DNA of 64,000 nt, taken from IMG/VR virus record IMGVR_UViG_3300025096_003663, positions 17,248 through 81,247 of that record; one strand, given 5' to 3'. This document shows, one piece after another, positions 13,901 to 50,808 of this stretch. Within the stretch, counting starts at the first letter, position 1. Every line of letters starts with the position of its first letter. This DNA comes from a virus. Both the position numbers and the translations under genes were made by a program. The notes under the pieces are model-generated. The model saw nothing but the letters and a program-made list of their open reading frames with translations. It was not told where the DNA came from and did no database searches.

Positions 13901-16900
13901 ATTGACAGAAGAGCCTCGTAAGATCCCAAGAGTTCAAAGGACAGGCGCACAGGTGTCTATTGATTATTATAATTTTCAAAAATTACAAGAAGAAGAGCTT
14001 TCCTTTGAAATTCCGGATCAATTTGGACACGGATATGTTATAAACCCTGAATTCCAGAGATTAATATCAGACGGAATAGTACCAGCCGATGGTGATCCTA
14101 ACGGACCTTATGGACCATATACGACAGAGAAACTAGATCTCATCGGTCGCCTGGCGGATATTCTACCAGAAGGTATACCCCTTACCGACTTTGGTTTAGA
14201 CTCGGCAGGAAAGATGTTTGAGCTTCTTAAAGATTTTTTGGTAAGAAAACCTGCACCTCGAATTACTGTTAATGATACTGTTCCCGAGCTGGCAGCCAAT
14301 TCAAAGGCAGCCCTGAAGAACATAGATAATTTAGTATTGAATTCTTCAACTCCGGGTCAAATTGAACTTGAGCTACAGCAGCCCACGGTGCTGGGAAATG
14401 TAGAATCCAAGATGATGCAGTATGTGCTACAGTTGAAGATGATGGAAAATAATGATTTTCTACTTAAGATAGGTCAATTTCCACCAGATCTAGGAGCTCT
14501 CGCCGTCCAAGAGCCGGTACAATCTGAAAATTCTGCTTTCTTTTATGAAGAGTACGAAGGTAATATTACCTTCCCTGCCACGGCTCACGATTTACTTCAA
14601 TATGTGAGAAGTAACACTCCGTCCGCGATTTTTAATGACTTTCAACAAAAAGCAGACTTTCAGCGATTAATATATACAATAACAAGAAACGGCATAGAAC
14701 ATTATAGTGGAAACTTTTCTTCTCCTCCTAATGTTTTCAATGATAACCTGGTTGGAGATCTGAACGAATTTTCTGACACGGTAATGTATCACGATATTAT
14801 CCGCCAGATGTTTTCTGGCATCTCTTCTCATATTCTGACATCGCCCATGCTTAGGTTTACAGGCGATATGGGCAAGTCCATCATTCGGGTACCATATTTA
14901 TCTATTGTCGATTGGTCACCCCTCCCCAATGAAGACGAGGCTGCCTGTGGGCACGATCCACACATCCTCTCCATAGATACTATTCGGCGACAGATGAAAG
15001 AGGATTACGAAAATAAGATTAATAAGATTGAATGCGACGATCTAGGGAACGAGATAAGCTCCAATGCCCAGGGTCGTAAGGATCTCTCCTCCCTAGAGAA
15101 AGCCATTATGTCGGGATGTGTTCTCACCACCTTGAGGACTTATTCTCTAGAGCAGCTTTTAAGATCTATGTTTCCAGTCTCAGTCTTTTCAGGTTCGGAT
15201 TTTATGACAGAAGTCCAGTTGAAATACATTGTTGATAAGGTTAATGATAACATATACGATAAAAGCGAGAGCTACTATGATGCTTTTCTGCAAGAACTGG
15301 AGAGAGTCTTTGGTGATCGAATGGAGGAATTTAGTCCTTACGGAACCATACCTTCGGTAATAGCAGACGGCAATAAATCGGGCATAAGCTGGGTTTATGC
15401 CCAAAGGGCTTTGGATGAGTTCTACGGAGCTAAGGATTTAGCAACAGAGGAATTATCCTCAAGCCCCATAGGCAACGCCAATCTCGGCGGAGCATCCACA
15501 CCAACAAACTCAGACATTTTCCAGCCAAGTTCAGACGAAGAGATTATCTCACAACCCTCTGCCTCGCCCCCCACACCAGCGACGGGAGGCTCGTCTACTC
15601 AACCTCCGCTCTCTGCTCTAGAAGTTGGCTCGCCACCCAGTAATTTGCCTGCTCAAATAGAGGTAGTGGATACTGATGTTTCCGAGTCTTTGAATCCTGG
15701 ATTATTAGAAGACCCCTGTACTGATCTGAATGTTCCGTCCCTGATTCCCACTACTCCGCTGAGAGAAAATCTTAAATATAGAATAGCATTTCTCATCGAA
15801 GAGCAGGTTTATTCTTTGCTAGGAAAGTTACAAGATTTAATATCTTTTAAGGGCAACTTGTCTTTAGACGATAATTTTCTTACAAAAATCCTACCTCTGC
15901 TAGATACTCCTCGCTATGACGGTGACCCTCGTTTTGCCGAAACAGGAGACTACGGGACAGTGACAGCAATCGCTCTCAAATCTCAAGCCGAAGAATATAA
16001 TGATAAATTTAACCAATGGAAGGCTTCTAAAGAAGCTATATTGAGACTTTTCAGGCAAGCCCCTTTTCCTTCTGAGGCATATCGACAGGCTATGATAGAT
16101 TCATTGGAGGCACCAGATCCACTGACTTTAGGAAGAAATTCAATTCCAGTTCTTGCTAGCACTGATTTGGACGGGACTACATTCTATTCTAAGCACACTG
16201 ATAGTAGTGATTTATCTATGAAACGAGAACTTAAATATATGTCTGTTTCGAATTTTAAACAGATTCTTTCAGCGAAGCTCGATGAATTCAAAACTTGGTA
16301 TGAAGACGACGAAAGAGAAACAAATTGGAATGGCGAGTTTGGATTATTTAGCCACCAAGAAGGCTCCGATAGTAAATACTATTGGGATCTTACTTCCAAG
16401 GGAGACGACGGGCAAGAAGGCAATAAGGGATTTTGGGAATGGTTTTTTGCCGACAGTCAGTATAAGGACATGGATAAGTTCGCTCGAACATACCCCTATC
16501 CAGAATATGATGATTTTTTAGAAGGCATCCAGAAACATACCCCGATTCCAAATGCGAGGGGGCTAGAATCATATTCCGGTGAATCCACACCGTCTTTTGA
16601 CCCATCAGGCGAAGCGGGAAAACTCTTCTTAGAAAGATATATCCTTACAGAGAAGCAGGAGTCTGAAGAGACAGATGTATTTCCAGGCACAAGATTCATG
16701 TCCAGTGATCCCGATAGTCCGACCATTGCCAAAGAAAAGTTAGGTGGAGAAATTAATTTAAGTTCTCAAGAAATACAAAATATTACCACATTTGCAGGGC
16801 AGATGAACGGGATTGCCATACAAGGGGATTCTGAACATTCTCCTGACAGCAATGTCGCTGATAAATTTAAAAAGATATCCTTTGGACTTAGACTTAGCTA

Positions 16901-18896
16901 TGTCTCGCCACTTTCGCCTTTCGTCCCAAAGTCTGATGAAACACACACTCTGAAAGTCGGCGGATACAATTGGAAACAGTCGTTCAACTCCACATGTCAA
17001 GAGAAAAGTAAATCATATGTGTTGAGAGAAGAGTATACTAAAAAATTCACAAGTTCTGAAGCAATTGGCGAGGCTCTGGAATCAACAGTAGGAACTTTAC
17101 AGGGATACCAGGAGTTTGGTCCTACAGAGCCCGAAGAAGCAGAACAGTTGTCAGAACAAGTGTTGGAATCTGCAGCAAACTCTTTAGCCGAATCCGAAAT
17201 AGAGAGTATGGCTGTTCACCGAGATGTAATGGTGTTCCCTATATGTTCGGTGGAATTGCCTATCCAATTATCCGACGATTTGAAATTTAAAGATTTCTTT
17301 AATTCTCTTGAAGTTGGACAAGGCTTTAAAAGCAAAAAGTTGGAAGATCTGTTCAATAACCAATATATGATACCTTTGGTTGAGCAAATGAAGAAATCTC
17401 AGCCATATAAATTACTTTTCAAATATTGTATCCCGTCCGATCCAATACTTTCAGCTACTTCGATATATTCGAATATAGTGAATGAGCTGCCTCAAGAATT
17501 TTTTAGCAAAACTAAGGAAGAGCTAAAGAGCCTCTTCGAAGTAGCTTTAAACGGCGGAGATTATACTTTCGAATCAACATCCCAAAGAGAATCTGGCGGC
17601 AATCGAGGGGCATATGCTCGTGCTTCCGCGAATTATGGAACTGACGGCAAAGCCCGAGATCCAAGTTTGTTTGACTTCGCGATAAAGACACCAAAGCTTA
17701 TTTTTAAAGGACTTACAGAATTTATTGATCCAGTCATTGCCCCAGCATCAAAGATAGTAAAGGCTGCAAATGCAGGTATGCTTATACCCCAAGTTATGAA
17801 GATTTTGAATCCGGATGGAACTGCCGGCGGCACCAACGACGAGAACTATTTCTTGACTCAAGTAGCTTTCCCTCGCGGCTCAATCCCTTTTCCAACTGGG
17901 GATATGCTTGGCGACGAGGTGACTGTCATCGATAAAGCACAAGGCTTTGGAGGAGCATCGGTAGATGAAGAGATAGTAATGTTTCGTTTTAGAGATGCTC
18001 AGCTTAAGAGCTCGGAAACCGGAAACAATTTGTTCGATAGATATATACAAAATGTCTTTATGAAATATAAGCCACCTCTTGCCGCCATGGAGGAATACTA
18101 TGAAAATGCTTCTGACTCAGCCCTTGTCCCTGAGAGCGAATCTCCGCTCTTCTCTGAAGAAACTAAAGCATTTCAGCGATTCGCACTCGGAACAGTGAAA
18201 AGGGACTTTGGATTAGTGGCTGGAGCTCTTATGAGCCAATATTCGAAAGATCTCAAAAAGGTGAGAGATGGTGTGGTGGAAGAGCTCAAAGACAGAGAGA
18301 TGCTCACCGAAGAACTAGATATCCAACTTCATTTAGATGTTCTGCACCCGTTCTCCCGAGCTTTGTTTCAATTCTTACGCCAAGCTTCTGATTCGGTTAC
18401 CTGTGGTGCCCGAGATGTGATAATAGGAATCTTACGAGGTGAAATAGTAGTAAATCCTACTTATTTCAGCGGCATGGCAACCGGGTTTCTTACTGAAGTA
18501 GATATTAAAACAGAAATCGTATCTCTAAAGACAGACTCACCAATCGTGGATTGGGTTATTTGGGGCACAAACGGAGGTGCTTTCCATATTTCTAACCCGC
18601 CGATACCACAAACTATCTTTCCAGGATATCCCCTACCTTTGCCAATCACACCAGTAGCAATGTCTTCTCTTCCTTACGATATGGTACCATATGGACCAGG
18701 ACCACCCCACAGTCCTCTTGGACATATTTACCATGCAGTCGTTGCAGCAGAGGGGCTGGCGAATGTGGATCTCGACATGAAAGATATCTTGAGAGAGGAA
18801 GAAGGCTTAGAAAGCAAGAAAAAGCTTCGTGGAAAACTATGTATAGATATGGAACAAATCTCTGCCGAAGAAAGAAAACGGCGAGGCTTGGAGTGA
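10959..18896 (+). CDS. Giant 2645-residue virion protein
   Basis: One uninterrupted frame of 2645 codons starting MAKKKKATTVDESHPP. The N-terminal 250 residues contain SLYQLAEEYKDFFRIT and KGSEIYLPNTEPD, a weak LysM-like flavour. A Ser/Pro/Thr-rich linker spans about residues 1497-1587. The C-terminus is proline-rich (FPGYPLPLPITPVA). No long coiled coil, so a tape measure is not favoured. It is followed seven bases later by gp25, so a baseplate-associated or hub-peripheral component is likely. I recognise no family. It is one of the two largest genes in the window. Confidence 0.7.
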   Translation: MAKKKKATTVDESHPPNPDDQYSTVIPPIVEDWTYRPVNKPFYDPEAVAYAIIIQSGKKIKGEIYLTPDESVDTSTLPRDKNSEKKIVKQSTFPHIISEAKERTLKYYNKRVDPGNIELLSDLTIIEHVHISTRPRAPNLFYVTIDAPKFDLIPDLGRYILTPITKESSLYQLAEEYKDFFRITDNTEKGKRARISEILRANGINVLEADNSEVEEWIYRVNYGLEDPPGKDSKFNKGSEIYLPNTEPDFSRVISGGKEIELHIGDTKQDIGKLIALLKIYDEKIRESQFVVKNFDIDRQIKELENFLPRIRTHFLDNDYNFRNFLEDNIRLGLDKDSNLIYIGISSSGSVAYLNKAMPSLALESPFNNPRTMNLLSYLQEIVLLSSSSLPWKDFLSRYISPAPQIVSRDPQSVFEDAQQNTKTILEQLASRFDKFSAKSNRQLGEENSIYGSVQIMNGIFNQQTSALRDTGDAVIRDLANISEKIENPGASACGAGATVYNEVLNKIDFKSLVASAIDCLKEQVPFDCEDIVLAIAEENLDAVAGIFRARINPQYHDILEEALQIATSGDFTLYQIKYEYQFYKPLEEKLAQASEGQIFLGALEYGLNSEGVDYNSLFQEVCSYLSDPRQALSDLTDAFFLPTIFLPDNLPTVDIDEMTTVAFEKMLLELVSSLIVKTVQAVISTLLNRCREGSGSGDGSSSPGYGSGLDVGAAIADNVGAPNFREAMEDLLDSLGTSPWSPALPTGGAFELIESGTVQLASDISSSLTSSTLDMVETESKFLVMQNLFTILKGELTSPEIIRLLEGRASPSLLQVVLNIIHPSSTQPQNEILSPLRDSIMTKGDVEEMFQKIASLVDLGPTIEQVNILSNQLGCSLDDFVSSRVPLWCNTLPPDQTTPVAESVIYDEKENFLDYYRYLWKPSNMLPDPCEDPNTNINTIVPKDSNSFSFMLDKVLKTIFDNVYMAYDSSVLSFPDPMFVLTEEPRKIPRVQRTGAQVSIDYYNFQKLQEEELSFEIPDQFGHGYVINPEFQRLISDGIVPADGDPNGPYGPYTTEKLDLIGRLADILPEGIPLTDFGLDSAGKMFELLKDFLVRKPAPRITVNDTVPELAANSKAALKNIDNLVLNSSTPGQIELELQQPTVLGNVESKMMQYVLQLKMMENNDFLLKIGQFPPDLGALAVQEPVQSENSAFFYEEYEGNITFPATAHDLLQYVRSNTPSAIFNDFQQKADFQRLIYTITRNGIEHYSGNFSSPPNVFNDNLVGDLNEFSDTVMYHDIIRQMFSGISSHILTSPMLRFTGDMGKSIIRVPYLSIVDWSPLPNEDEAACGHDPHILSIDTIRRQMKEDYENKINKIECDDLGNEISSNAQGRKDLSSLEKAIMSGCVLTTLRTYSLEQLLRSMFPVSVFSGSDFMTEVQLKYIVDKVNDNIYDKSESYYDAFLQELERVFGDRMEEFSPYGTIPSVIADGNKSGISWVYAQRALDEFYGAKDLATEELSSSPIGNANLGGASTPTNSDIFQPSSDEEIISQPSASPPTPATGGSSTQPPLSALEVGSPPSNLPAQIEVVDTDVSESLNPGLLEDPCTDLNVPSLIPTTPLRENLKYRIAFLIEEQVYSLLGKLQDLISFKGNLSLDDNFLTKILPLLDTPRYDGDPRFAETGDYGTVTAIALKSQAEEYNDKFNQWKASKEAILRLFRQAPFPSEAYRQAMIDSLEAPDPLTLGRNSIPVLASTDLDGTTFYSKHTDSSDLSMKRELKYMSVSNFKQILSAKLDEFKTWYEDDERETNWNGEFGLFSHQEGSDSKYYWDLTSKGDDGQEGNKGFWEWFFADSQYKDMDKFARTYPYPEYDDFLEGIQKHTPIPNARGLESYSGESTPSFDPSGEAGKLFLERYILTEKQESEETDVFPGTRFMSSDPDSPTIAKEKLGGEINLSSQEIQNITTFAGQMNGIAIQGDSEHSPDSNVADKFKKISFGLRLSYVSPLSPFVPKSDETHTLKVGGYNWKQSFNSTCQEKSKSYVLREEYTKKFTSSEAIGEALESTVGTLQGYQEFGPTEPEEAEQLSEQVLESAANSLAESEIESMAVHRDVMVFPICSVELPIQLSDDLKFKDFFNSLEVGQGFKSKKLEDLFNNQYMIPLVEQMKKSQPYKLLFKYCIPSDPILSATSIYSNIVNELPQEFFSKTKEELKSLFEVALNGGDYTFESTSQRESGGNRGAYARASANYGTDGKARDPSLFDFAIKTPKLIFKGLTEFIDPVIAPASKIVKAANAGMLIPQVMKILNPDGTAGGTNDENYFLTQVAFPRGSIPFPTGDMLGDEVTVIDKAQGFGGASVDEEIVMFRFRDAQLKSSETGNNLFDRYIQNVFMKYKPPLAAMEEYYENASDSALVPESESPLFSEETKAFQRFALGTVKRDFGLVAGALMSQYSKDLKKVRDGVVEELKDREMLTEELDIQLHLDVLHPFSRALFQFLRQASDSVTCGARDVIIGILRGEIVVNPTYFSGMATGFLTEVDIKTEIVSLKTDSPIVDWVIWGTNGGAFHISNPPIPQTIFPGYPLPLPITPVAMSSLPYDMVPYGPGPPHSPLGHIYHAVVAAEGLANVDLDMKDILREEEGLESKKKLRGKLCIDMEQISAEERKRRGLE

Positions 18897-28036: not shown

Positions 28037-31000
28037 ATGACAGACAGTTTCTTAAAAATAGCACCATTCCAATTATTTAGTTCATCAGTAGATACCGGCT
28101 ACAATGCCGAGATCTCAGCTAGCTTTAAGCCGGGCATCGATATAACTAATATGAAAACAGATCGATACTCCGATCTGAATGATGCTCCAATGCAAGGACC
28201 GTTTACCGAGAAGTATGTGGGCGGAAGCCAATACAGACATGTCCCTCTGAACGACGGCAACGATACACCGCTTACTCGCCCAGAGCTATACAATATTACA
28301 ATGACATCCAGTGTCCTCAAAGTTATAGGACCAGATAATATTGATGTCAATCGAGCACGAGCTCCTTACTTTCGCGATGGCTTCTCCAAAAGACCAGTCA
28401 ACATAGCGAATATACATACGACCGGCTCCGATGTAGGAAACTACCAGCATGATTACCAGGTTGTACAGACGGTAAGCAGAACTACAAACAACCGAGCATT
28501 CACCGAGGCAACTGGTTCAGGCTTCGCTCAATATCTCACAACACAATTTGTGAGTGGAGCCAAAGATCCGAATCGGACACTTCCAGACTTCGATATAGAC
28601 GGCAAGAATGAGTTCGTCTTCGTCAATCGTTTCAATGCCCCAGGAGGCACTCAGGTAAGCTCTAGGGGTGTTTTAGATACATATGCCGAGGAGTATGCCC
28701 CCGCCAACGATATCAACACTAGGAACTACACAGTTCGCTCTCAGCTACGTTCTGATTTAGCAAGACACACACCGAAAGCTGGTACTGGAATACCGACACA
28801 ATATCATAACGACAACAGGAATCCGAAGATAGATTTTACAAAGGATCCTATAATAGTTCCTGATCGATATGCTTCTCGAATTTTGACAGAACGAAAATTA
28901 ACAGCTAGCGATGCCTCCACTGACGATGTTTATGGATATGCAGTATCTATGGTTTCCGGATCTGATGGTATTTACATCTTGGTAGGTGCCAGGGAGAACG
29001 ATTCATCGGATACAAACAACGGCGCCGCTTATATTTACCAGGTAACCAACTCAGGAATATTATCTGAGCAGAAACTAACAGCAAGCGATGGCTCGCCCCA
29101 AACCAACCAGCTTTTTGGAACTTCTGTTTCTATCACTTCCGGCACCGATGGAATTTATGCCATCGTCGGAGCGCTAGGTGATGATGAAGCAGGCACATAC
29201 GATGGTGCCGCCTACATCTATCACTCAACTAGTGCTGGAGTGTTGACCGAGCAAAAGCTAACAGCTAGCGATCCTCCTCTTTCCAATTATCGCTATTTTG
29301 GCAACTCTGTTTCCATCGCCTCCGGCACTGATGGCATCTATCTCTCTGTGGGCGCCATCGGAGATGATGAAGCTGGATCTAATGATGGCGGCGCTTATCT
29401 CTATCACTCGACAAGTGCCGGCATCTTGACAGAACTTAAGCTAACAGCTAGCGATGCACCCACTTCAGCCGCTAGAAACTTTGGCAACTCTGTTTCAGTC
29501 GCCTCCGGTACTGATGGCATTTACATCTCAGTTGGTGCATATGGCGATAGCGAAGTTGGTCCAGATTATGGTGCCGCTTATCTTTATCATTCAACAAGTG
29601 CTGGACCCTTGACTGAGCTTAAGCTAACAGCTAGCGATGCAGGCTCCTCAGCGACACCGCGTTTTGGCACTTCCACCTCTATTGCCTCCGGCACTGACGG
29701 CATTTATTTACTTGTCGGAGCCCGAGGAGATGATGAAGTTGGTCTAAACGACGGCGCCGCTTATCTCTATCACTCAACAAGTGCTGGACCCTTGACAGAA
29801 CTTAAGTTGACAGCAAGCGATGAGCCTGCTTCAGACGCTAGAAACTTTGGCAACTCTGTTTCAGTCGCCTCCGGCACTGACGGCATCTATTCACTGGTGG
29901 GCGCCGATTTGGAACCAGACGATGTTGGAATATTACAAGGCGCCGCCTATATTTATCACTCAACAGCTACCGCTTTGATAGCCCAGAAGGTAACACCCAG
30001 CGATGGCTCGGAATCAATAGCTCAAAGGTTTGGATCGTCAGTATCGATTGTCTTGACTACCAATCAAGTGGGTGCTAGCGACGTGTATGTTCTAGCAGGC
30101 GCCAGCGGCGATGATGTCGGACCAGGCGGCACCGATGCAGGTGCCGCATATCTCTATAGCGGCTCAAACAGCCAATTGAGATATAGTAGTGAATATTCTC
30201 AGTCATATGATAACGGATTTATAACTCATGCCATACCTCGGTCTGATTTGAAATATAGATGGATTCAAGCATCAGCCCTAACAACCGAGGCAGAATTACC
30301 AGGATATCAACACAGTAGCCCCACTCCATTCGGACCCTACGACGATATAAACTATGTTTTAGATAGTGGAAATCCGGCACTTCATAATATAATCGGCGAT
30401 GTAGTCGAGCCATCGAGGGGAGACTTCATTGGTATTTCTGGAACAGGATTAGATAAATCAGGCATAGATATCCAGACTACACTCGGATCAATAAACCTCC
30501 TTTCCAAGACAGCAGCCACCATTTTTAATGTTTACAATGGACCTTACCAATATTCTTCCTGGAATCAAGTAAGAAACAGCTACAACCCAATCGTCAGACA
30601 GCTTGTAAGGGAGAGTATTCTATCCCTCGCCAACCCACAGAAGACAACAACAAACTCCTTGGGAAATCAGGTATTTTCGAAAAGAAGTGATGGGGTAACA
30701 AACTATAAAGAGCCAGTTGTGAGCGAAAATGCTCATCCCGTTGAGCATAATCTTCTGGTCCGACCAGACCTCACCTCTCAGGAGACAATCCCTTCATCTT
30801 TGAAGTATTCTTTCGCCAACAATCTATCTTCTTTTACTCGGCAGTCTATCGTAAATAAGGCTAACATCCAGCAACAGAACCAGAGCTCTATGTATGACGA
30901 TATCAAAGACTACTATCTAGAGTCTCAGCCAGGCGGAGATAATCCGGTAGAGAAGTTGCTCGACATCAAATATTCTCAAGGATTATATCCAGCCGTAGCA

Positions 31001-34000
31001 AACACATTCATCAACATCACTCGGGAACGAACTGAATACTCCGAAGTTGCCGGCACTGGAAGCAATGGCTATGACAGGATTTTCGGCAAACAAAGAACTT
31101 TCTATAAAGAAGACGAGATAAGAAATTCTAATGCTCCTAACTCACAGGGCTTCGCTCCTTCCGAAAATGTTATAGATTTCAGCTCTTCTTACGATTTCAG
31201 CGAAAACATCTCAACCAACTTCATTAACGACGATTCCAGCATCGTTCGGCTTGATGATACATTGGGTAGCAATGCTTTCTGCTTCGGCACAAATCCAGGC
31301 TCAAGCCCGTCAACCAGATTTTTACAGTGGAAAGACACTTTCTTGACATCAAGTGTGTCCTCGGATATTTCTCTGTCTTTTGAGATTACGAGAGGGACAT
31401 ACGGAACATTCGATGGAACAGTCACGCTAGAAGAACCTTCCTTCTTGCAGCCAGGTAAGGCAGTTTATGTACAATATAGGCTTTCAGATGGAGGAGCTTG
31501 GCAAACAGCAGATACGATACTTCCTGGCGACCTTACAGCAGGCAACTATTCTCTCACGGCTTCCTCTTTCGATCCTGGTGGACCTGCTTTTGTTAGAATT
31601 TCCCAAGAAGTATTTAGCGGACAGGGAACATCGAATGGCTACCAGTTTGATAACTATGCCATCAGAAATCTAAATATTACAGCTTCTACTGTCGATACAA
31701 ACAAGCCAGCTCTCAACTTTGACTCGATGGCAACAGACGGAATAAAATCTTTTCCAGAAAGTGCCTCTTATAGGGATTATAACGGAGAATTGATGCAGGA
31801 TTCAGACGAGACTATGTTCTCCACGAGCCCGCTTCCGTCACTATCCTATTTGGAACTCTATAATATAAAAGTCAATCAGTCAAGCAGCGGCTATGTCGAG
31901 CGACTAACAGAACAAATTGCTGGCGAGAACTCTTGGTATAATACATACAATGATTATGCTGTCGATGTAAGACCCCACACAAAGAATAAGAGCATAGTCC
32001 CAGAGTTCAGGATGTCAGATCACATCCCATACTACATTGTTGATAAGGGTAATGATTTCAGAGCCCCAAATAAGAAAATACTATCTCTCAACGGAGCATC
32101 CATCACATCAAGTGCTGAATCAGTGTCTTCGGAACTCTTTGATAACAACTTTGTTACAAAGTATGTTCAGTCATCGAATACAGCACGATTCGCCAGCATG
32201 ACAGATGAGCACGAAGATGTAGCCAGTGTCAGCAATGTAAGCTTTACTTGTAAAGGAATAAAGAAACTTCTTCCCTACAACGGATTCTACCCCAAAGACA
32301 GAACGGTTCAGATCGGAAACCTGCTTAGCGAATCCTTGTCCACGAATGTCGAAGGCACATACGAAGGAGTGGAAGGATCCTTTCCAAAACAAGGCTGGCA
32401 AGGCATCCTCAAGCCACTTATGTCGCCAGGCATTCTTTACAACTCGATCAAATCAGGCATCGCTGTTGACTACCCGATTTACACAGGAAGTATTCCAGGG
32501 CTTGTAGCGGGCGATAATACACCATCTGATTTCAGACTCGATGTTGGACCAAACTACCGCTTACCATTCGAAACACTCGTCGATGTAAAAGGAAATCTCC
32601 CAGAAGGAACGGAAAACCCAATCAGATTGGTATCCGCCTTTGTTACTGACGAATCAGATTTCAACACCGATCAACTGTTCAACTACAAATCCGTATGGAA
32701 CGGGCAGAAGACAGACTTATTCGAACTTGGGATGCACAACTTCCTAGCCGAAACCGTTGACTTCTTTTTACCACAAAGCGGATTGAGCAACTTCAGGTCA
32801 CAACCAGAAAACGAATGGGATAGGTTCAAGGAAGGCACCTCATACTATATGGATATCGTTCTCCGAGATTCCGTCGAGATGAACAAGTTTATCGAATACT
32901 CAGGCAGCGGAGAAATAGTAGAGAACTTAAAATTTGGAGCTAGCGACGGGGAATTAGATGATCGATTTGGTATATCTGTTGACACCGTAGAGGGTTCTTC
33001 GGGAGAAGGTATCTATGCTTTAGTTGGATCCGTCATCGGCAAAATGTATCTTTTTCAGAATAGATTTGATACAACAGGCTGGAAACAGTTGGAAAGTATT
33101 GAAGTATCACCATTAGACACTCCTTATATGTCTGTATCGATTGCCTCTGGAACTGACGGCATCTATATGCTCGCCGGCAACAGTTTCGATAGCTCATTGC
33201 CTTATGCCGCCAATCAACAAGGAGCAGCATATTTATATCATTCATCCAGCACTGGAATTTCAAAGCAAGCTCTTTCAGCGAGCGATGGAGCAAGCTTTAC
33301 GATGCCAAGGTTTGGGACATCGGTATCAGTAGCATCTGGGACAGACGGCATCTATGCTCTGGTTGGTCAACCAAGGGACATTGGCGGTACCATGAATGCT
33401 GGTGCGGCTTACCTTTTCCACAGCAAGAGTAGCGAACCATTTTATATAGATAGGCTTGGACTCACGAACCAGAAATGGCAGACAAAAATAACATCAAGCG
33501 ATGTTGGCTCGATAGATCTTTTTGGACAATCAGTTTCTGTTGCCTATGGTAGCGACACTGCCTATATGTTGATTGGCTCAACAGGAGATGCCGATGGCGG
33601 ATCAGGAGCAGGAGCGGCTTATCTCTTTCACAGTAAAAGCGGCACACCATTTTATGTTGATAATACTGGTCTAACAAACCAAGAGTGGCAGACAAAGATT
33701 ACGGCAAGCGATTCGACGGCAGGCACGAATCTAGGAGATTCAGTATCTATTGTTTCCGGCACCGACGCATTATATATGGCAGTCGGCGGAACTGACGAGT
33801 CTACCATAGCTTCTGATGCCGGGGCAGCATATCTTTTCCATAGTCAAAGTGGAATTCCGTTTTACATTGATAGCACTGGTCTGACAAATCAAGAATGGCA
33901 GACAAAACTAACAGCTAGCGATGCCGCTGCAGACGATAACTTCGGCAACTCAATATCTAATGTAGTTGGTGCCGAAGGGATATACACTCTCGTTGGAACT

Positions 34001-35674
34001 CGACTTGGCTCTTCTTCTCTCGGCGAAGATGCTGGCAAGTCATATATCTACCATAGCCGAAGTTTGGGTGTTTCAGAGCAAATAATGAGTGCTTCGGACG
34101 GACTTCCTTATCAATATTTTGGAACCTCAGTCTCCTTGATCAGCTCTTCGATTTTGCCGGATGAATTATACTCAACAATGGGAGCGTCAACAGCATCTTT
34201 CGCTGTCTCTGGATCCGGAGCGGGATATATGTTCGCTGGAACATTCGGCTCTCTGTCTGGCACAATCGGCATTCAAAATGTCCAACAAGATTACAGGCAG
34301 CACGGTAAGCTATTCGGCTTACCGCTAGAAGATGCTTACGATCCAGCTTATGCCGCTTACACCCCGCCAATGTTTTATGGCGAGGCAGTAGCAAGAATAA
34401 AGTTCACCCCAACCGTAACTGACAACTACACACTTGATGAGATCATAGAACAGGCGACGGTAGAAGAAATAATAACTGTTGACTCAAATCGAGTAGCTAC
34501 AGTGAACGGCTTTGTAAAATCACTTACGACATTACAAGAGCAAAACAGAATGCCCGTCAGCTCATCAGTCAACTTATTCGGAAAGTATTTCGAGAAAGGG
34601 GCAACTTGGAATGCCGAATCGGGACAAGCAACAACTATCGACGGTGCTACAGCCCAGCCATCATGGGTCGTATCAACCAAGTTTGAAAGCCCAGTTTTGG
34701 ATGTTTCTAGTAGCAAATACAACGATCTTTATTCGGCTCACCTCCCTGATGCTGATATGGCGACAAACTTCAATTTCTACCCAGGCGAGATAAACAGAAC
34801 AAACCCAAGAACAATGTGGACAAGCTACGGCAAAACTCCAACTGGAACAAAAGCTGTTACATTGGAACTGAGAGAATCATTTCCCCACAAAGTGCTGGGA
34901 CGAGCAAGTGCTACGACTGGCTCCCTAATGAGGCAATGTAAGTTCGATAAGGGAGTGACGAAGAAGGTCGGCACCGTCCGAGGCACCAAGGAGATCAGCG
35001 AAGCTATCGTTATGATTCCTTACTTGGACAAGGCAGTAAAGCATGTAACCACTCAGGTCGAGGGCTACAACCTCATTCGACTGAATAGGTCGATATACAA
35101 TATCCAGAAGAAAAACTTTGAGAAAGAAGGTATAGCAATAAAGACAGCCGCTCGCCGAAATAACGAACAGATCGAGAGCACTACATTTACAGATATGTTC
35201 CAGGCAATGGAGAACTACAATGTGCCTCCAAATATGGATTTCCTGAAGTATGACGACATTGCCCCGTTCGCTATGTATTTTTTCGAGTTCAACCAAACAC
35301 TAGACCAGGATGATCTAACGGACATCTGGCAAGGGACTATGCCAAAGGCAGCCCTAAAGGTGGAGAAGGACGAGGTAACGATAGAACATCAAGTAGATCC
35401 GTATGAGTTCTTTGGATACATAAAGGACCAAACATTGATCGGGCAGATGAAGTTTTTCACCTTCAAAGTAAAGAAGAAGGCAAAACAAAATTATTATGAG
35501 ATAACCAAGGATGCCACAGACGATAGTAGATTTAGATTTACATTCTCCAGCGATCCTGAAGCAACAGCAGTCCCACCACAGGGAAGCTATAACTGGCCGT
35601 ATGATTATTTCTCTCTTGTAGAAGGAATTGACATCGAAGCAAAATATACTTTGAAAAATGAGGATGAGGGGTAA
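28037..35674 (+). CDS. 2545-residue virion protein with two FG-GAP propellers
   Basis: A single 2545-codon frame. Two regions are arrays of FG-GAP (integrin-alpha-like) units built on FGxSVSIASGTDGIYxxVGA and GAAYLYHSTSAG. Array 1 spans residues about 280-708 and array 2 about 1632-2071, and I count seven units in each, so each probably folds as a seven-bladed beta-propeller. Between and around them lies non-repetitive sequence, with a Lys-rich C-terminus (FFTFKVKKKAKQNYYE). It likely forms a peripheral tail or baseplate component with two display domains for binding host surface. No enzyme motif is visible. A candidate promoter precedes it. Confidence 0.75.
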   Translation: MTDSFLKIAPFQLFSSSVDTGYNAEISASFKPGIDITNMKTDRYSDLNDAPMQGPFTEKYVGGSQYRHVPLNDGNDTPLTRPELYNITMTSSVLKVIGPDNIDVNRARAPYFRDGFSKRPVNIANIHTTGSDVGNYQHDYQVVQTVSRTTNNRAFTEATGSGFAQYLTTQFVSGAKDPNRTLPDFDIDGKNEFVFVNRFNAPGGTQVSSRGVLDTYAEEYAPANDINTRNYTVRSQLRSDLARHTPKAGTGIPTQYHNDNRNPKIDFTKDPIIVPDRYASRILTERKLTASDASTDDVYGYAVSMVSGSDGIYILVGARENDSSDTNNGAAYIYQVTNSGILSEQKLTASDGSPQTNQLFGTSVSITSGTDGIYAIVGALGDDEAGTYDGAAYIYHSTSAGVLTEQKLTASDPPLSNYRYFGNSVSIASGTDGIYLSVGAIGDDEAGSNDGGAYLYHSTSAGILTELKLTASDAPTSAARNFGNSVSVASGTDGIYISVGAYGDSEVGPDYGAAYLYHSTSAGPLTELKLTASDAGSSATPRFGTSTSIASGTDGIYLLVGARGDDEVGLNDGAAYLYHSTSAGPLTELKLTASDEPASDARNFGNSVSVASGTDGIYSLVGADLEPDDVGILQGAAYIYHSTATALIAQKVTPSDGSESIAQRFGSSVSIVLTTNQVGASDVYVLAGASGDDVGPGGTDAGAAYLYSGSNSQLRYSSEYSQSYDNGFITHAIPRSDLKYRWIQASALTTEAELPGYQHSSPTPFGPYDDINYVLDSGNPALHNIIGDVVEPSRGDFIGISGTGLDKSGIDIQTTLGSINLLSKTAATIFNVYNGPYQYSSWNQVRNSYNPIVRQLVRESILSLANPQKTTTNSLGNQVFSKRSDGVTNYKEPVVSENAHPVEHNLLVRPDLTSQETIPSSLKYSFANNLSSFTRQSIVNKANIQQQNQSSMYDDIKDYYLESQPGGDNPVEKLLDIKYSQGLYPAVANTFINITRERTEYSEVAGTGSNGYDRIFGKQRTFYKEDEIRNSNAPNSQGFAPSENVIDFSSSYDFSENISTNFINDDSSIVRLDDTLGSNAFCFGTNPGSSPSTRFLQWKDTFLTSSVSSDISLSFEITRGTYGTFDGTVTLEEPSFLQPGKAVYVQYRLSDGGAWQTADTILPGDLTAGNYSLTASSFDPGGPAFVRISQEVFSGQGTSNGYQFDNYAIRNLNITASTVDTNKPALNFDSMATDGIKSFPESASYRDYNGELMQDSDETMFSTSPLPSLSYLELYNIKVNQSSSGYVERLTEQIAGENSWYNTYNDYAVDVRPHTKNKSIVPEFRMSDHIPYYIVDKGNDFRAPNKKILSLNGASITSSAESVSSELFDNNFVTKYVQSSNTARFASMTDEHEDVASVSNVSFTCKGIKKLLPYNGFYPKDRTVQIGNLLSESLSTNVEGTYEGVEGSFPKQGWQGILKPLMSPGILYNSIKSGIAVDYPIYTGSIPGLVAGDNTPSDFRLDVGPNYRLPFETLVDVKGNLPEGTENPIRLVSAFVTDESDFNTDQLFNYKSVWNGQKTDLFELGMHNFLAETVDFFLPQSGLSNFRSQPENEWDRFKEGTSYYMDIVLRDSVEMNKFIEYSGSGEIVENLKFGASDGELDDRFGISVDTVEGSSGEGIYALVGSVIGKMYLFQNRFDTTGWKQLESIEVSPLDTPYMSVSIASGTDGIYMLAGNSFDSSLPYAANQQGAAYLYHSSSTGISKQALSASDGASFTMPRFGTSVSVASGTDGIYALVGQPRDIGGTMNAGAAYLFHSKSSEPFYIDRLGLTNQKWQTKITSSDVGSIDLFGQSVSVAYGSDTAYMLIGSTGDADGGSGAGAAYLFHSKSGTPFYVDNTGLTNQEWQTKITASDSTAGTNLGDSVSIVSGTDALYMAVGGTDESTIASDAGAAYLFHSQSGIPFYIDSTGLTNQEWQTKLTASDAAADDNFGNSISNVVGAEGIYTLVGTRLGSSSLGEDAGKSYIYHSRSLGVSEQIMSASDGLPYQYFGTSVSLISSSILPDELYSTMGASTASFAVSGSGAGYMFAGTFGSLSGTIGIQNVQQDYRQHGKLFGLPLEDAYDPAYAAYTPPMFYGEAVARIKFTPTVTDNYTLDEIIEQATVEEIITVDSNRVATVNGFVKSLTTLQEQNRMPVSSSVNLFGKYFEKGATWNAESGQATTIDGATAQPSWVVSTKFESPVLDVSSSKYNDLYSAHLPDADMATNFNFYPGEINRTNPRTMWTSYGKTPTGTKAVTLELRESFPHKVLGRASATTGSLMRQCKFDKGVTKKVGTVRGTKEISEAIVMIPYLDKAVKHVTTQVEGYNLIRLNRSIYNIQKKNFEKEGIAIKTAARRNNEQIESTTFTDMFQAMENYNVPPNMDFLKYDDIAPFAMYFFEFNQTLDQDDLTDIWQGTMPKAALKVEKDEVTIEHQVDPYEFFGYIKDQTLIGQMKFFTFKVKKKAKQNYYEITKDATDDSRFRFTFSSDPEATAVPPQGSYNWPYDYFSLVEGIDIEAKYTLKNEDEG
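28877..30160 (+). repeat. FG-GAP array 1 (seven units, 183-bp core period)
   Basis: Seven in-frame units of about 61 residues. The central ones repeat with an exact 183-base period: CTTATCT at 29394, 29577 and 29760 begins near-identical stretches that continue through CTTAAG and ACAGC. The outer units diverge more, especially the last, as expected if the array grew by duplication from the centre and the edge units close the ring. Confidence 0.85.
32932..34249 (+). repeat. FG-GAP array 2 (seven diverged units)
   Basis: A second set of seven related units with the markers DGIYMLAG, DGIYALVG, DTAYMLIG, DALYMAVG and EGIYTLVG, preceded and followed by weaker ones. Units here carry an insertion (FYIDRLGLTNQKWQTKI and variants) missing from array 1. 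ACAGCTAGCGATGCC near 33910 matches array 1, suggesting exchange between arrays. Confidence 0.8.
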
Positions 35675-45089: not shown

Positions 45090-46208
45090 ATGTCGTTTTA
45101 CAAATTCGATCCTAGCGATATTCTCTACAACAGGATAAGAACTTATCCTCGGGTCCACTTTGATATTCACACGGGCTCGATATATTATAACGAGAATGTC
45201 AACAAGTTTGGAACCCCAAACGGAAATGTATCACTCCAGGAGCTAGCTACACTGAAAGCATCTGGGGGAGACTATTATACTTTCGTTACGAAGGATAGTG
45301 GACTTGCAGCTTTCAATACTGTATCCACCACGGCTTTTAACGGACTGAGTTTTGGCGATGTGATTACTTCGTCTCTCCCACAAACAGCTTCGATCTCTAT
45401 TGAATACCACGAAGAGGGAGACAGTCGCCTTCACATTGATGCTCTGAGAACTCACACGGACAACTATACTTACCTAAGCAATCATTATGCTTTTAGTTCC
45501 TCTTTAGGAGATAAGGACACACAATCGCTAACATTGGTGAGCTTCCCGTCCATTTTCTACGGCTCATCTATCAAGAAGGGGAGTGTAGATTTAAAATTTT
45601 ATATCACTGGAACACTGATCGGGCAACTTAGAGATGAATACGAAAACGGCGAACTTATACAAGTTGGTCCGCCTGGTAGCACGGGGTCGGGGAGTGTTGC
45701 CGGTGTAGCATACTACGGAGAGGGGCTTCTCCTCCTCACGGGAAGCTGGAACATCACAGAAGAGTCTCAAGATTTTTATGACGGACTGGATTATCCAAAG
45801 TGGAAGTATTTTGCCTCGCCAGGAATTCCGCCATTCCCAGAAACAGAATCAACGAATTATTCGATTGATCTCAGCGGCACGAACTATGTTCCAGTGGTTA
45901 CAATGTTGGCTCATGCTAAAAAGGCTCATCTAAACCACTCGAACAATCCCACGGTCATTACTTATGGACAAGCTAATACCAGAGACACTGGAACTCTTGG
46001 GTTTTATGAGCGAACGGACTTAGATATTAAAAATGTAGCCAAATACCCGTATAATGAAGATACGGGCTCTTTTAAGAAAGAAACATATGTCTCCAAAATT
46101 GGAATATACGACGAAAACAGAAACTTGATTGGGATTGCAAAACTGGCAACCCCAGTAAGAAAAAGAGAAAATGATAACTTCACTTTCAAAATGAAAATGG
46201 ATTTTTAG
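45090..46208 (+). CDS. Virion protein, paralogue B
   Basis: A 372-residue beta-rich protein starting MSFYKFDPSDILYNRIRTYP. It shares its C-terminal domain with the preceding gene product. No enzymatic motif. Its TAG stop at 46206-46208 supplies the first base of the GTG start of the RuvC-like gene, so structural and replication genes are translationally adjacent. Likely a tail or neck component. Confidence 0.66.
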   Translation: MSFYKFDPSDILYNRIRTYPRVHFDIHTGSIYYNENVNKFGTPNGNVSLQELATLKASGGDYYTFVTKDSGLAAFNTVSTTAFNGLSFGDVITSSLPQTASISIEYHEEGDSRLHIDALRTHTDNYTYLSNHYAFSSSLGDKDTQSLTLVSFPSIFYGSSIKKGSVDLKFYITGTLIGQLRDEYENGELIQVGPPGSTGSGSVAGVAYYGEGLLLLTGSWNITEESQDFYDGLDYPKWKYFASPGIPPFPETESTNYSIDLSGTNYVPVVTMLAHAKKAHLNHSNNPTVITYGQANTRDTGTLGFYERTDLDIKNVAKYPYNEDTGSFKKETYVSKIGIYDENRNLIGIAKLATPVRKRENDNFTFKMKMDF

Positions 46209-46726
46209 TGTTATTAGGATTAGATATTTCAACAAGCATCACGGGATTATGTGTTCTGGATGCTAGCGGCACCATTGTTCACTCTGACTATATTGATATG
46301 AGAAAAGAGAAATCTTTTTACGAAAAAGTGAAGAAGGCAAAAGACATCATTGCCGCCACAATAAAAGAGCATAACATAAAAGAAGTCTGGATAGAACAAT
46401 CTCTCCAGGCTTTCCGTCCCGGATTGAGCTCGGCGAAAACCCTGCTTACGCTGGCTAAGTTCAACGGCATCTTGTCGTGGACAATTTGGGAATCAGGAAT
46501 CGAGCCAAATTATGTTGGAGCGAGCACAGCAAGAAAATCTTGTGGGATCAAAGTCCCGAGAGGAGAGAAGGCAAAAAATGTTGTAGTGAACTTTTTACTT
46601 GACAACGAGCCCTGTTTTGAGGTAGAATATACAAAGTTCGGAAATGTCAAACAACATTTTTTTGATATTGCCGATGCTATCATAGTAGCGAAAGCAGGTT
46701 TTACATGTCACACGAAGAAAAGCTAG
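46208..46726 (+). CDS. RuvC-like Holliday junction nuclease
   Basis: A 172-residue protein of RNase H-like RuvC fold: Asp6 in MLLGLDISTSITG, Glu63 in EVWIEQSLQ, and Asp153/Asp156 in FFDIADAIIVAKAG supply the four acidic metal ligands. Length fits RuvC (about 170). It would resolve branched DNA before packaging. T4 itself uses the unrelated endonuclease VII (gp49), so this is a possible functional substitute. GTG start at 46208 overlaps the upstream stop by one base; the end overlaps the primase gene. Confidence 0.82.
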   Translation: MLLGLDISTSITGLCVLDASGTIVHSDYIDMRKEKSFYEKVKKAKDIIAATIKEHNIKEVWIEQSLQAFRPGLSSAKTLLTLAKFNGILSWTIWESGIEPNYVGASTARKSCGIKVPRGEKAKNVVVNFLLDNEPCFEVEYTKFGNVKQHFFDIADAIIVAKAGFTCHTKKS

Positions 46727-47658
46727 ACACCCTCAAGAATGTCTTGTCTTTCTCTCACAGAATCAAGGGTGAACATCTTTTCTACTGCCCATACTGTAAT
46801 CATCACAATCCAAAGCTGTCGGTAAATATAGACAAGAATGTTTATAAATGCTGGGTTTGTGATACAAGGGGAAAAGATATATGGAGAATTGTTAGGAAGT
46901 TTGGAGACTTCAGAGATAAGAGAACTTGGAGATCTTTCTCCGAAGAAATCGACTATTCTGAAACAAACATATTCGAAGCCTTGTTTGGAGAAAAGGAAGA
47001 GGAACAAGAGGAGAAGCTAACTTTACCAGAGGAGTTCATTCCGCTATCGAACAAGAAAAATCCAATCAGTGCTAGGGCACCCTTGAAATATCTCGCCGAC
47101 AGAGGTATAGGAAAGAAAGAAATAATAAACTGGAAGATCGGCTATTGTTCGAGGGGAGAATATGGCGGAAGGATTGTGTTCCCATCTTTCGATAAGAGCG
47201 GTAATGTCAATTATTTTGTTGCTAGAACTTATGGAGACGACTGGGTAAAATATAGGAATCCCCCAGCAACTCGAAATGTTATTTTCAACGAACTTTTTGT
47301 GGACTGGAAAGAGAGAGTATTCTTGGTTGAGGGAATCTTTGATGCAATCTTTCTTGGCACGAATGCCATCCCAATCCTTGGTTCTACTATGAATGAAGAT
47401 TCCAAGCTGTTTAAGAAAATAATAAATAACGATACTGCTGTTTATATGGCTCTCGATGATGATGCCGAAAAGAAATCTATGAGGATAATAGAGAGCCTGA
47501 TTTCTCACGGAACTGAGGTTTATAAGGTAGATACATCAGGCTTTGAAGATATTGCTGAGATGCCGAAAAAAACACTTGACAAAAGAATTAAAAGTGCTAA
47601 AATGATAACTAACGAAGATTTTCTAAGTCGGAAGATCCGTTCGATTGTTGGAGTATAA
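46705..47658 (+). CDS. gp61: DNA primase (gp61/DnaG type)
   Basis: A 317-residue primase with an N-terminal zinc-binding domain, Cys28, Cys31, Cys49 and Cys52 in YCPYCNHH and YKCWVCDTRG, and a TOPRIM core: VFLVEGIFDAIFLG with the catalytic Glu, and ALDDDAEKK with the metal-binding Asp cluster. The short length is similar to T4 gp61 (342 aa) rather than bacterial DnaG. It would make RNA primers with the phage helicase, which is not in this window. The gene overlaps the RuvC-like gene by 22 bases and ends immediately before the nuclease fusion. Confidence 0.9.
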   Translation: MSHEEKLDTLKNVLSFSHRIKGEHLFYCPYCNHHNPKLSVNIDKNVYKCWVCDTRGKDIWRIVRKFGDFRDKRTWRSFSEEIDYSETNIFEALFGEKEEEQEEKLTLPEEFIPLSNKKNPISARAPLKYLADRGIGKKEIINWKIGYCSRGEYGGRIVFPSFDKSGNVNYFVARTYGDDWVKYRNPPATRNVIFNELFVDWKERVFLVEGIFDAIFLGTNAIPILGSTMNEDSKLFKKIINNDTAVYMALDDDAEKKSMRIIESLISHGTEVYKVDTSGFEDIAEMPKKTLDKRIKSAKMITNEDFLSRKIRSIVGV

Positions 47659-50600
47659 ATGAGAATAGCTCACATTTCTGATACACACATCAGGAACTAT
47701 GACAGGCAAGACCAATACAAGGCGATATTTAAATCGCTCTATAAGTCTGTGAGAGAAAATAAGATAGAGTATATTATCCACACTGGAGATATCGCTCACA
47801 AGAAGACGAGCATCTCGCCAGAGTATGTAGAGATATGTTCAGACTTTCTCAGGAACCTTGAAAGTGTCGCTCCCACATATGTTATTTTAGGTAACCACGA
47901 TGGTAACCTTAGAAACTCGGACAGACAAGATGCACTGACACCGATTGTGGATGCCCTCCGTCTTGAGAACTTGTTTCTTCTCAAGAACTCGGGAGAATAT
48001 TCCGTCAACGAGGAACTTACTTTAAATGTTCTTTCTGTCTTCGACACAGACAATTGGGTAAAAACACCAACGGATGATAGCAAGATAAACATAGCCCTCT
48101 ACCACGGTGGTATCAGAGGCTCCCAGACAGACATAGGCTGGGATATTAAAGTCGATCACGACACGGGCATCTTCAGCCCTTTCGATTATGCGATGCTGGG
48201 CGACATTCATAAGTCCAACCAAATTCTAGACTCTGAGGGTAGAATCCGGTATGCGGGTAGCACAATCCAGCAAGATCATGGAGAAGCCCCGGACAAAGGA
48301 TACTTGATTTGGGATATTAAGAGCAAGGAAGAGTTTAATGTTGAACATATTATCCTTCCAGATCCAAACCCCCACTTGGATATCATACTTACTCCTTCTG
48401 GCGAACTTCCGGAAGATGTGAATATCCCAGAAGGAGCCAGAGCGAGAATTATTGCAGAAAAGTCGATAGGAACATCCCAGCAAAAGAAGCTGCTAGATGT
48501 TGTTAGGAAGCGCTTCTCTCCCCAGAGAGTTACTTTTAAAAATAAGAATGTCGGTGAGTCTGCTAGAGATGAAATAGTTTCCGAGCTAGATATTGGAGAT
48601 CTTAAGTCTCTTGATGTCCAAGAGAAGCTTATCAGAGAATATCTAAAGGACTACAATGCCTCTTCAGATGTTATGAGTGAGATTATCGAATTGAATGCTA
48701 GGATGAATGCTATTTCGGAAGCAGAAGATACGACTCTACGAAATGTCAATTGGAGTGTAAATACTCTTCGCTGGGATAACTTATTTAACTACGGAGAGGG
48801 CAATAAGATTGATTTCACTGCTCTAAGCGGGATTATAGGAATCTTTGGGAAAAACTATTCAGGAAAGTCCAGTGTCATTGACAGCCTCTTGTTTACACTA
48901 GAGAACAGCACATCTAAGAGTAGTGTCAAGAATGTTGATATCATAAATCAGAACAAGAAGTTCGCCCAATCCAACCTCTCTCTTACGATTGGTAATGTGA
49001 AATACTTGATCGAGAGAAAGATGGAGAAATATGTCAAAAAGCTCAAGGGCAAACAAACCGACGAAGCTAAAATGACACTCGATTTCTCCTCAAAGAATGT
49101 TGTAACCGGCGAAGAGCGAAACCTAAATGGCGAAACGAGAGGAGATACTGACAACAATATTCGAAGAATTTTCGGGAATAAAGATGACTTCATGACGACA
49201 AGCTTCAGCTCTCAGATGGACTCTCTTCAATTTATCAATCAAGGCTCTGTCGATAGAAAAAAGAGTTTGAGTAAGTTTCTGGGACTTGATCTGTTCGAGC
49301 GAAGGTATAAGATAACAAAAGAAGAGTCTTCTGACACGAGCGGTGCACTGAAGCAGCACGAGAATATTGACTATGATGAGAGCATCTCTAGCGAGAAGCA
49401 GAGTCTCTCTGTTGCTTCGAAAGAGTTGTCAGCACAAAAGCGCACCTGCACTTCCCTGAAAGGAAAGCTTCAAAAAGCACTAGGTGGTGTAAACGATATA
49501 GAAATAAAGATTGCTTCCTATCCAAAGCTGGATATCAATATTGATAAGAACAGAAAAGATATGGAAATAGCGAAAGCGACACATGAATCCCTAAAATCCA
49601 GCAAAGCTGAAAAAGAAGCCATGGCGAACAAAAACAGGTCTTATTTAGATAAGATTGATAGCTTTGTTTCATCTTGTTCTTACGAAGATTTGCGAGCAGA
49701 AAAAGATTCAATACAATCTATTGACACAGATCTGTCACTACTGTTGGTTGAGCACCAGCGAGTAGAAGGGCAAAAGAATAACCTGAGACAAAAGATTTCA
49801 CTACTTAGCGAAGTCCCTTGTGGCGACAAATTTCCTGGATGTAAATTTTTACACGATGCAGTAAAATCGCAGGGAGAAATCTCCGGGGTCGATAATGAGT
49901 TGGTATCTCTAACTAAGAAGACCGACAGCTTGAAAGAGCAATTCAGATCCATAGACAGAGACAAGGTGTTTTCTAAAATAGAGAAGTATGAAAAGATATT
50001 GAAAAATAAGGCAGAGGTAGAAAAAGAAAATAACACCCTCTTGCTGGAATTAGAGCGAAAAACTTCTAACATAAAAGAGTGCCTACGGAATATTGATGAT
50101 CTGGAGAAGGCAGAGAAAGAGTATCTCGAAAACGAGAAAGACTGCAAGCTCGTCGCCTCCCTGCTAAAGAAAAAGGAAACAGCAAAGCAACAAGTGGTAG
50201 GTATTCAAGACAGTTTGGAAGAGTGTGAGAATGACATTTTTAAACTTATTGCCAACAAGAGTAGCTACGAAGAGAGAATCTCTCTCCTCAAAGAACAGAA
50301 AAAGAAGTACGAAGATTTGAAGACACAAAATGTTGCCTACGAATTGCTAAAGAGTTGTATGGATCCAAACGGCATCAGTTCAGATATTATCAAAAAATAT
50401 CTTCCTGTCATTAATGAGGAGATCAACAAGGTTCTTATTTCCGTTGTGCCGTTTGAAGTCTTCTTTGAGCTTCAGGAGCGAAAGCTCGATATTTATATCA
50501 GGCATCCCAAATATGAGCCCCGAGTAATAGAGATGGCAAGTGGTGCCGAGAAGACACTGGCTGCCATGGCAATTCGATTAGCACTCACGAAAGTGGGCAC

Positions 50601-50808
50601 TCTTCCGAAGAGCGATATTTTCATACTAGATGAGCCAGCAACAGATTTAGACTCGGAAAATATGGAAGGCTTCTTATCAATACTAGAAATGTTAAAATCC
50701 CAGTTTAAGACCATTATACTTATCTCACATCTAGATACTCTAAAAGAATGTGTTGACGACGAGATTATTATAGATAAGAAAAATGGTTTCGCTAGTGTAA
50801 ACATTTAG
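47659..50808 (+). CDS. Fused Mre11-Rad50 (gp47-gp46) nuclease/ATPase
   Basis: A single 1049-codon frame carries both subunits that T4 makes separately. Residues 1-350 are the SbcD/gp47 nuclease: Asp8/His10 in ISDTHIRN, Asp44/His47 in HTGDIAHKK, Asn79-His80-Asp81 in LGNHDGN, His149, and Asp182/His184 in LGDIHKSN. From about 365 on it is SbcC/gp46: Walker A GKNYSGKS (397-404), long coiled coil with a Cys-x6-Cys hook (CGDKFPGC, near 720), signature ASGAEKTLAAM (near 958) and Walker B IFILDEPATDLD (near 990). It would process DNA ends for recombination-dependent replication. All key residues seem intact, so the fusion looks functional. Confidence 0.93.
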   Translation: MRIAHISDTHIRNYDRQDQYKAIFKSLYKSVRENKIEYIIHTGDIAHKKTSISPEYVEICSDFLRNLESVAPTYVILGNHDGNLRNSDRQDALTPIVDALRLENLFLLKNSGEYSVNEELTLNVLSVFDTDNWVKTPTDDSKINIALYHGGIRGSQTDIGWDIKVDHDTGIFSPFDYAMLGDIHKSNQILDSEGRIRYAGSTIQQDHGEAPDKGYLIWDIKSKEEFNVEHIILPDPNPHLDIILTPSGELPEDVNIPEGARARIIAEKSIGTSQQKKLLDVVRKRFSPQRVTFKNKNVGESARDEIVSELDIGDLKSLDVQEKLIREYLKDYNASSDVMSEIIELNARMNAISEAEDTTLRNVNWSVNTLRWDNLFNYGEGNKIDFTALSGIIGIFGKNYSGKSSVIDSLLFTLENSTSKSSVKNVDIINQNKKFAQSNLSLTIGNVKYLIERKMEKYVKKLKGKQTDEAKMTLDFSSKNVVTGEERNLNGETRGDTDNNIRRIFGNKDDFMTTSFSSQMDSLQFINQGSVDRKKSLSKFLGLDLFERRYKITKEESSDTSGALKQHENIDYDESISSEKQSLSVASKELSAQKRTCTSLKGKLQKALGGVNDIEIKIASYPKLDINIDKNRKDMEIAKATHESLKSSKAEKEAMANKNRSYLDKIDSFVSSCSYEDLRAEKDSIQSIDTDLSLLLVEHQRVEGQKNNLRQKISLLSEVPCGDKFPGCKFLHDAVKSQGEISGVDNELVSLTKKTDSLKEQFRSIDRDKVFSKIEKYEKILKNKAEVEKENNTLLLELERKTSNIKECLRNIDDLEKAEKEYLENEKDCKLVASLLKKKETAKQQVVGIQDSLEECENDIFKLIANKSSYEERISLLKEQKKKYEDLKTQNVAYELLKSCMDPNGISSDIIKKYLPVINEEINKVLISVVPFEVFFELQERKLDIYIRHPKYEPRVIEMASGAEKTLAAMAIRLALTKVGTLPKSDIFILDEPATDLDSENMEGFLSILEMLKSQFKTIILISHLDTLKECVDDEIIIDKKNGFASVNI

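Follow-up and report, generated by a model that had tools for sequence, protein, structure and literature searches.

Proteins that join Mre11 and Rad50 in a single polypeptide were described in 2011 by Yoshida, Claverie and Ogata (PMC3175470). That account lists R555 of Mimivirus together with twelve other sequences from bacteria, plasmids, eukaryotes and a Bacillus phage. R555 has GDxxH in place of GDxxD, and an Asp where the Pyrococcus furiosus protein has His206. Reads resembling R555 were enriched in aquatic viral fractions, some of them adjoining phage primase genes, and the authors inferred that such fusions abound in aquatic viruses and phages. In better known systems, the two activities reside on separate subunits. 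This is the case for bacterial SbcCD and for the archaeal and eukaryotic Mre11-Rad50 complexes, which also carry a CxxC hook at the coil tip and a GHxH nuclease motif. It is also the case for T4-like phages, where gp46 and gp47 are two genes. The CxxC hook is treated as highly conserved (PMC9569753).

The window, as we call the whole stretch of DNA that was analyzed, comprises 64,000 nucleotides of a viral record from IMG/VR that is 81,247 bases long. On its plus strand, as are the parts of the fusion and the primase and resolvase genes before it, lies a gene for a fused Mre11-Rad50 (SbcD-SbcC) protein of 1049 amino acids (47659..50808). The gene has an ATG start, 1049 codons and a stop codon, with no internal stops; the opposite strand has stops throughout. 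Pfam finds Metallophos, a calcineurin-like phosphoesterase, over residues 1-162 (4e-14), SMC_N over residues 369-1030 (1e-8) and AAA_23 over residues 373-605 (7.6e-6), and PHROG 77, an SbcC-like family, covers residues 286-1047 (3.6e-47). Sequence matches in the PDB are Rad50, SbcC, SbcD and Mre11 chains. The protein thus shows the phosphodiesterase motifs, the ABC ATPase motifs and the long antiparallel coil of the SbcCD/Mre11-Rad50 superfamily.

A sequence-only reading of this DNA had claimed that the two homologues are fused in one continuous 1049-codon frame. The intact frame, the Pfam and PHROG domains, the motifs and the structural model all agree with this, and the fusion is real. It is not, of course, the novelty that the reading implied, since such fusions were described in 2011, when their abundance among aquatic phages was already inferred (PMC3175470). 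The fusion type has been known since then, and the window protein is a further member of it, with a non-canonical hook.

An AlphaFold model of the protein, built with 63 aligned sequences as input, has a mean pLDDT of 85.6 and a pTM of just 0.54, so that the placement of the nuclease relative to the Rad50 heads is unreliable. Within its parts, the model delimits the following units. First comes a phosphodiesterase domain of the Mre11 type (residues 1-235, 47659..48363), assigned from the Metallophos match and from residues that are nearly invariant in 147 relatives. Residues 236-317 (48364..48609) are delimited by modelled secondary structure and would, from their position, be the Mre11 cap; a loop within them (298-309) is modelled poorly. 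Helices 318-332 and 336-356 then stand where Mre11 carries its Rad50-binding helix-loop-helix, and this segment (residues 318-356, 48610..48726) likely has that role, by analogy with the Thermotoga complex as cited in PMC3175470.

The second helix stops at residue 356 and the first Rad50 strand starts at 364, which leaves a linker of about 7 residues (357-363, 48727..48747). For the Thermotoga complex, Yoshida et al. estimated that 9-12 extended residues would bridge both subunits (PMC3175470). The sequence-only reading supposed that fusion fixes a 1:1 ratio and might alter assembly. Because the modelled linker comes near the estimate for Thermotoga, the usual M2R2 geometry is probably retained in the fusion, as suggested by the shortness of the linker together with the helix-loop-helix that is still present.

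The Rad50 part begins with an N-terminal ATPase lobe (residues 364-543, 48748..49287), recognized through AAA_23, that holds the P-loop (residues 397-404, 48847-48870). A modelled helical coil ascends from it (residues 544-718, 49288..49812) and another descends (residues 729-901, 49843..50361). The ten-residue turn 719-728, between helices 675-718 and 729-763, is the tip of this coiled coil and bears Cys721 and Cys728 (49819..49842). The C-terminal ATPase lobe (residues 902-1049, 50362..50805), assigned from SMC_N and near-invariant residues, contains the signature ASGAEK (residues 960-965, 50536-50553), Walker B (ILDE, residues 987-992, 50617-50634), D998 and His1024.

The best full-length structural matches of the model are DNA-repair proteins of giant viruses (Tupanvirus, Harvfovirus, Yasminevirus and Catovirus), 970-1390 amino acids long, and a protein of a Tenacibaculum phage; the mimivirid homologues lead the viral matches. 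Matches at the level of single domains include E. coli SbcCD and archaeal and fungal Mre11-Rad50.

A single frame in one metagenomic record might, of course, be an assembly artefact, or arise when loss of a stop codon runs two ordinarily separate genes together. How common the fusion is among relatives bears on this directly. A search of IMG/VR with the one protein gave no relatives, probably owing to patterns drawn from its variable parts. An alignment-based scan of IMG/VR found at least 578 confirmed relatives, thereby supplying the viral-database search that had been proposed as a check. From the IMG/VR matches listed, together with a scan with Microcystis phage Mel-JY01, 100 viral loci were kept, and both domains lie in one frame in 99 of these. 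Since ranking by the whole protein could favor fusions, a second search used the nuclease domain alone. Among its 80 nearest loci, 78 are fused, two are cut by the end of a contig, and none has separate genes; the close relatives with separate genes that would have spoken against the sequence-only reading are absent among these 80.

Two relatives lend the artefact some color: in the distant L107 the nuclease gene is split off by an overlapping frame change, and in L003 the nuclease part holds an insert. Both interruptions, however, lie inside the nuclease domain, away from the domain junction. The 78 fused loci come from independent metagenomes, and Mel-JY01, an annotated phage, carries a fusion of 1066 amino acids close downstream of a primase-like gene. 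The artefact is refuted by the fused relatives from independent metagenomes, and we regard it as exceedingly improbable.

The two interrupted loci deserve description in their own right. The frames of L107 (3313-3978 and 3965-6547) overlap, the only split among the 100 viral loci kept, and may represent a genuine split, a site of frameshifting or an error in the sequence. The position of the L107 break roughly matches that of the insert in L003 (LR756508.1), a 484-kb uncultured phage whose fused gene is interrupted at about 3600-4650, right after GDIHKRQ in the nuclease domain. The L003 insert is a frame of 305 amino acids whose CxxC pairs resemble a zinc ribbon and whose sequence suggests a homing endonuclease; a search with Rfam gave no known intron there. 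A stand-alone Mre11-like frame of 302 amino acids with GDIH (1409-2317 of its locus), in a Flavobacteriaceae metagenome bin, is possibly an unfused or broken relative.

Elsewhere, an uncultured phage of 735 kb carries a fusion of 1202 amino acids, and the plasmids searched gave no match. A scan of genome collections returned remote separate genes and just a few fusions; these sit on contigs assigned to metagenome-assembled genomes and are probably phage contamination.

Where among these fusions does the window protein belong? R555 and the window protein share an N-terminal Mre11, a C-terminal Rad50, a short linker, GDxxH and the Asp in place of His206. Both are viral, and a primase gene is a neighbor in the window as in some of the R555-type sequences. 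R555, at 1351 amino acids, has a longer coil and belongs to a virus of another host class. The Mel-JY01 protein (WWT39521.1, PP395634), annotated merely as an AAA domain containing protein, resembles the window protein in being a full-length fusion with a primase-like gene upstream and GDIHK in its nuclease; it is, however, only about 29-33% identical to it, and its hook is CKHC, a CxxC hook. The gp46/gp47 pair of T4-like phages such as cyanophage S-SSM7 would be expected to have both activities and to process ends for recombination-dependent replication, as would the window protein. It differs, beyond its two genes, in having GHYH in gp47 and a shorter Rad50 part (574 amino acids). The bacterial, archaeal and eukaryotic complexes share domain folds and motifs with the window protein, which lacks their separate subunits, their CxxC hook and their GHxH.

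The nuclease motifs of the window protein read D8xH10, GD44xxH47, GN79H80D, H149 and GD182IH184. The nuclease motifs, the ATPase motifs and the Cys-x6-Cys pair that the sequence-only reading had listed are all there, with one amendment on which it was silent: the fifth nuclease motif reads GDIH in place of GHxH. H47 and D182 are the two departures that mark R555.

Conservation was scored on 147 different aligned fusions. Residues D8, H10, D44, N79, H80, H149, D182 and H184 of the nuclease, and K403, S961, G962, D991, E992 and H1024 of the ATPase, are invariant or nearly so, with K403 present in every one of the 147. Residues kept with almost no exception through so many relatives mean that the motifs seen in the window are not there by chance. 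The marks of R555 are kept as well: GDxxH occurs in 144 of the 147 and Asp182, replacing the first His of GHxH (His206), in 146. The unfused phage Mre11 proteins examined, from a cyanophage (gp47), Bacillus phage Grass and a Moorella phage, keep GHxH; thus the change to Asp182 goes with the fused family.

Judged from sequence, a replacement of His by Asp in this motif could change how the nuclease uses metal or how active it is. One might go further and suppose that the nuclease, with an Asp ligand in GDIH, is weak or altered, and that the fused protein acts mainly as an ATP-driven clamp or tether for DNA. The near-universal Asp182, set against the GHxH of the unfused proteins, would suit this. 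Asp can, however, bind metal, and the other ligands (D8, H10, D44, N79, H149 and H184) are all kept, which makes a dead nuclease unlikely. A protein that is mainly a clamp is accordingly rated quite improbable.

The hook is less uniform. The sequence-only reading noted that its spacing departs from CxxC, and this holds: the window protein has Cys721-x6-Cys728, which agrees with canonical zinc hooks in its position at the coil tip and differs from them in spacing. The hook segment spans 38 residues, for which the cysteine frequency of the remaining coil predicts 0.31 Cys; each of the 147 fusions has two or more there, which excludes a chance pair. With hook classes set by pattern, 88 of the 147 fusions have a spacing of six residues, 38 of two, 13 of seven, four of one, three of three, and one has another spacing. 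The 38 hooks with a spacing of two are themselves of two different sequence types. In unfused T4-like gp46, taken as a control, the hook is exactly CPTC in 81 of 81 proteins sampled, a set less divergent than the fusions (mean identity 64% vs 43%).

A search confined to the open-access literature gave no earlier report of Cx6C hooks, of phage hook variants or of hook swapping, and the available part of the R555 account contains no discussion of hook spacing (PMC3175470). This silence, and a spacing unlike the CxxC of solved hooks (called highly conserved in PMC9569753), would be expected if the Cys-x6-Cys turn were not a zinc hook but a disulfide that switches with redox state, or two cysteines paired by accident. 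Chance is, however, excluded by the cysteine counts, and in related proteins this tip bears a usual CxxC hook. This alternative is therefore considered unlikely, though in the form of a disulfide it keeps an appreciable probability.

On FastTree trees, in which several rows, the window included, sit on long branches, the hook class has to change at least 22 times on the tree made from the heads alone of 145 proteins (16 with similar classes merged) and 25 times on the tree of all 147 (18 when merged). Pairs with heads at least 80% identical behave according to class. If both members have the same class (heads 88% identical), their hooks are 76% identical and their flanking coils 56-58%; if the classes differ, the hooks are 36% identical.

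One pair makes the pattern concrete. L071, with CxxC, and L065, with Cx6C, have heads that are 97% identical, with three head segments at 96-100%. Their coil just 5' of the hook is still 92% identical, with little synonymous divergence (pS 0.20), and at the hook identity falls sharply to 41%, a break on the 5' side that resembles recombination. The hook DNA of L071 is 80% identical over 71 bp to hooks of the remote clade of Mel-JY01-like proteins, and sister L065 is outside its best matches. Over the 363 bases around the break, the longest exact match of the two is at most 56 bases. A metagenomic chimera may, of course, lie behind single pairs such as this one.

From these sequence comparisons, the hook looks to be swapped between related phages. 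It is conceivable, and we put it forward tentatively as something short of an even bet, that the hook of fused phages is an exchangeable specificity cassette swapped by recombination, in which case Cx6C would be a new metal-hook geometry. The tips exchanged between near-identical proteins would be Cx6C, Cx7C, CxxC of two sorts, Cx3C and CxC. Perhaps such hooks must not join those of co-infecting phages, or perhaps they escape a factor that targets the hook. The same diversity might also reflect mere relaxed constraint on a fast-evolving coil, with no cassette exchanged, and the rapid divergence of the flanking coil in same-class pairs fits that. Within a class, however, the hook is better conserved than the coil beside it, and neither the sharp break between L071 and L065 nor the match of the L071 hook to a remote clade, rather than to its sister, would be anticipated from drift in the coil. 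Relaxed constraint is plausible all the same, at somewhat under an even chance.

The genes around the fusion speak to its role. Directly upstream is a gene for a DnaG-type primase (46705..47658; PHROG 47, DNA primase, 1.7e-43), whose stop codon abuts the fusion's start codon, and before it one for a RuvC-like Holliday-junction resolvase (46208..46726; PHROG 159 and 827). Homologues of the primase occur in 82 related loci, often immediately 5' of the fusion, and of RuvC in 54. The source record also encodes a T4-type terminase, a portal, a head protease and a baseplate wedge protein. Its sole AAA_23 match is the fusion itself, and no RecA gene lies on this incomplete 81-kb fragment. Ten relatives of 141-191 kb likewise have the fusion as their sole AAA_23 gene, hence no second Rad50 gene; a RecA-family gene is present in eight of them.

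Other parts of the window carry genes of a different kind. Two adjacent genes (4814-5749 and 5746-6765), both of PHROG 540 (nucleotide-sugar epimerase), lie near aminotransferase and glycosyltransferase genes in a sugar-modification cluster. Two huge frames (10959-18896 and 28037-35674; 2645 and 2545 amino acids) flank the baseplate wedge gene and are probably tail or fiber proteins.

A sole AAA_23 gene, a RecA-family gene and synteny with primase and RuvC fit end processing for recombination-dependent replication, and by analogy with T4 gp46/gp47 we infer such a role for the fusion. Very probably, then, the window protein is a phage member of the R555-type family of Mre11/Rad50 fusions, an end-processing machine of the M2R2 type for phage recombination-dependent replication and repair. 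Here, two chains would form one M2R2-type particle, each chain contributing its nuclease, its ATPase head and a coiled-coil arm that ends in the two hook cysteines. As the paired Rad50 heads bind and hydrolyze ATP, they would open and close the path of DNA ends to the nuclease; the hook would join two arms through a metal or a disulfide. Expressed in an operon with the primase and resolvase, and working alongside the RecA/UvsX-like recombinase that most relatives encode, the fusion would process and tether phage DNA ends.

The size of some relatives, 141-191 kb, and a terminase of T4 type, a portal and a baseplate in the window's own phage support the inference made in 2011 that the abundant R555-like environmental sequences are largely from phages (PMC3175470). 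With the fusion itself known, the variable hook is the newer part and the one worth following. The fused family offers naturally occurring variants of the hook on a common scaffold. With it, what Rad50 requires of a hook, two cysteines without one fixed spacing, becomes testable, as does the partner specificity of hooks.
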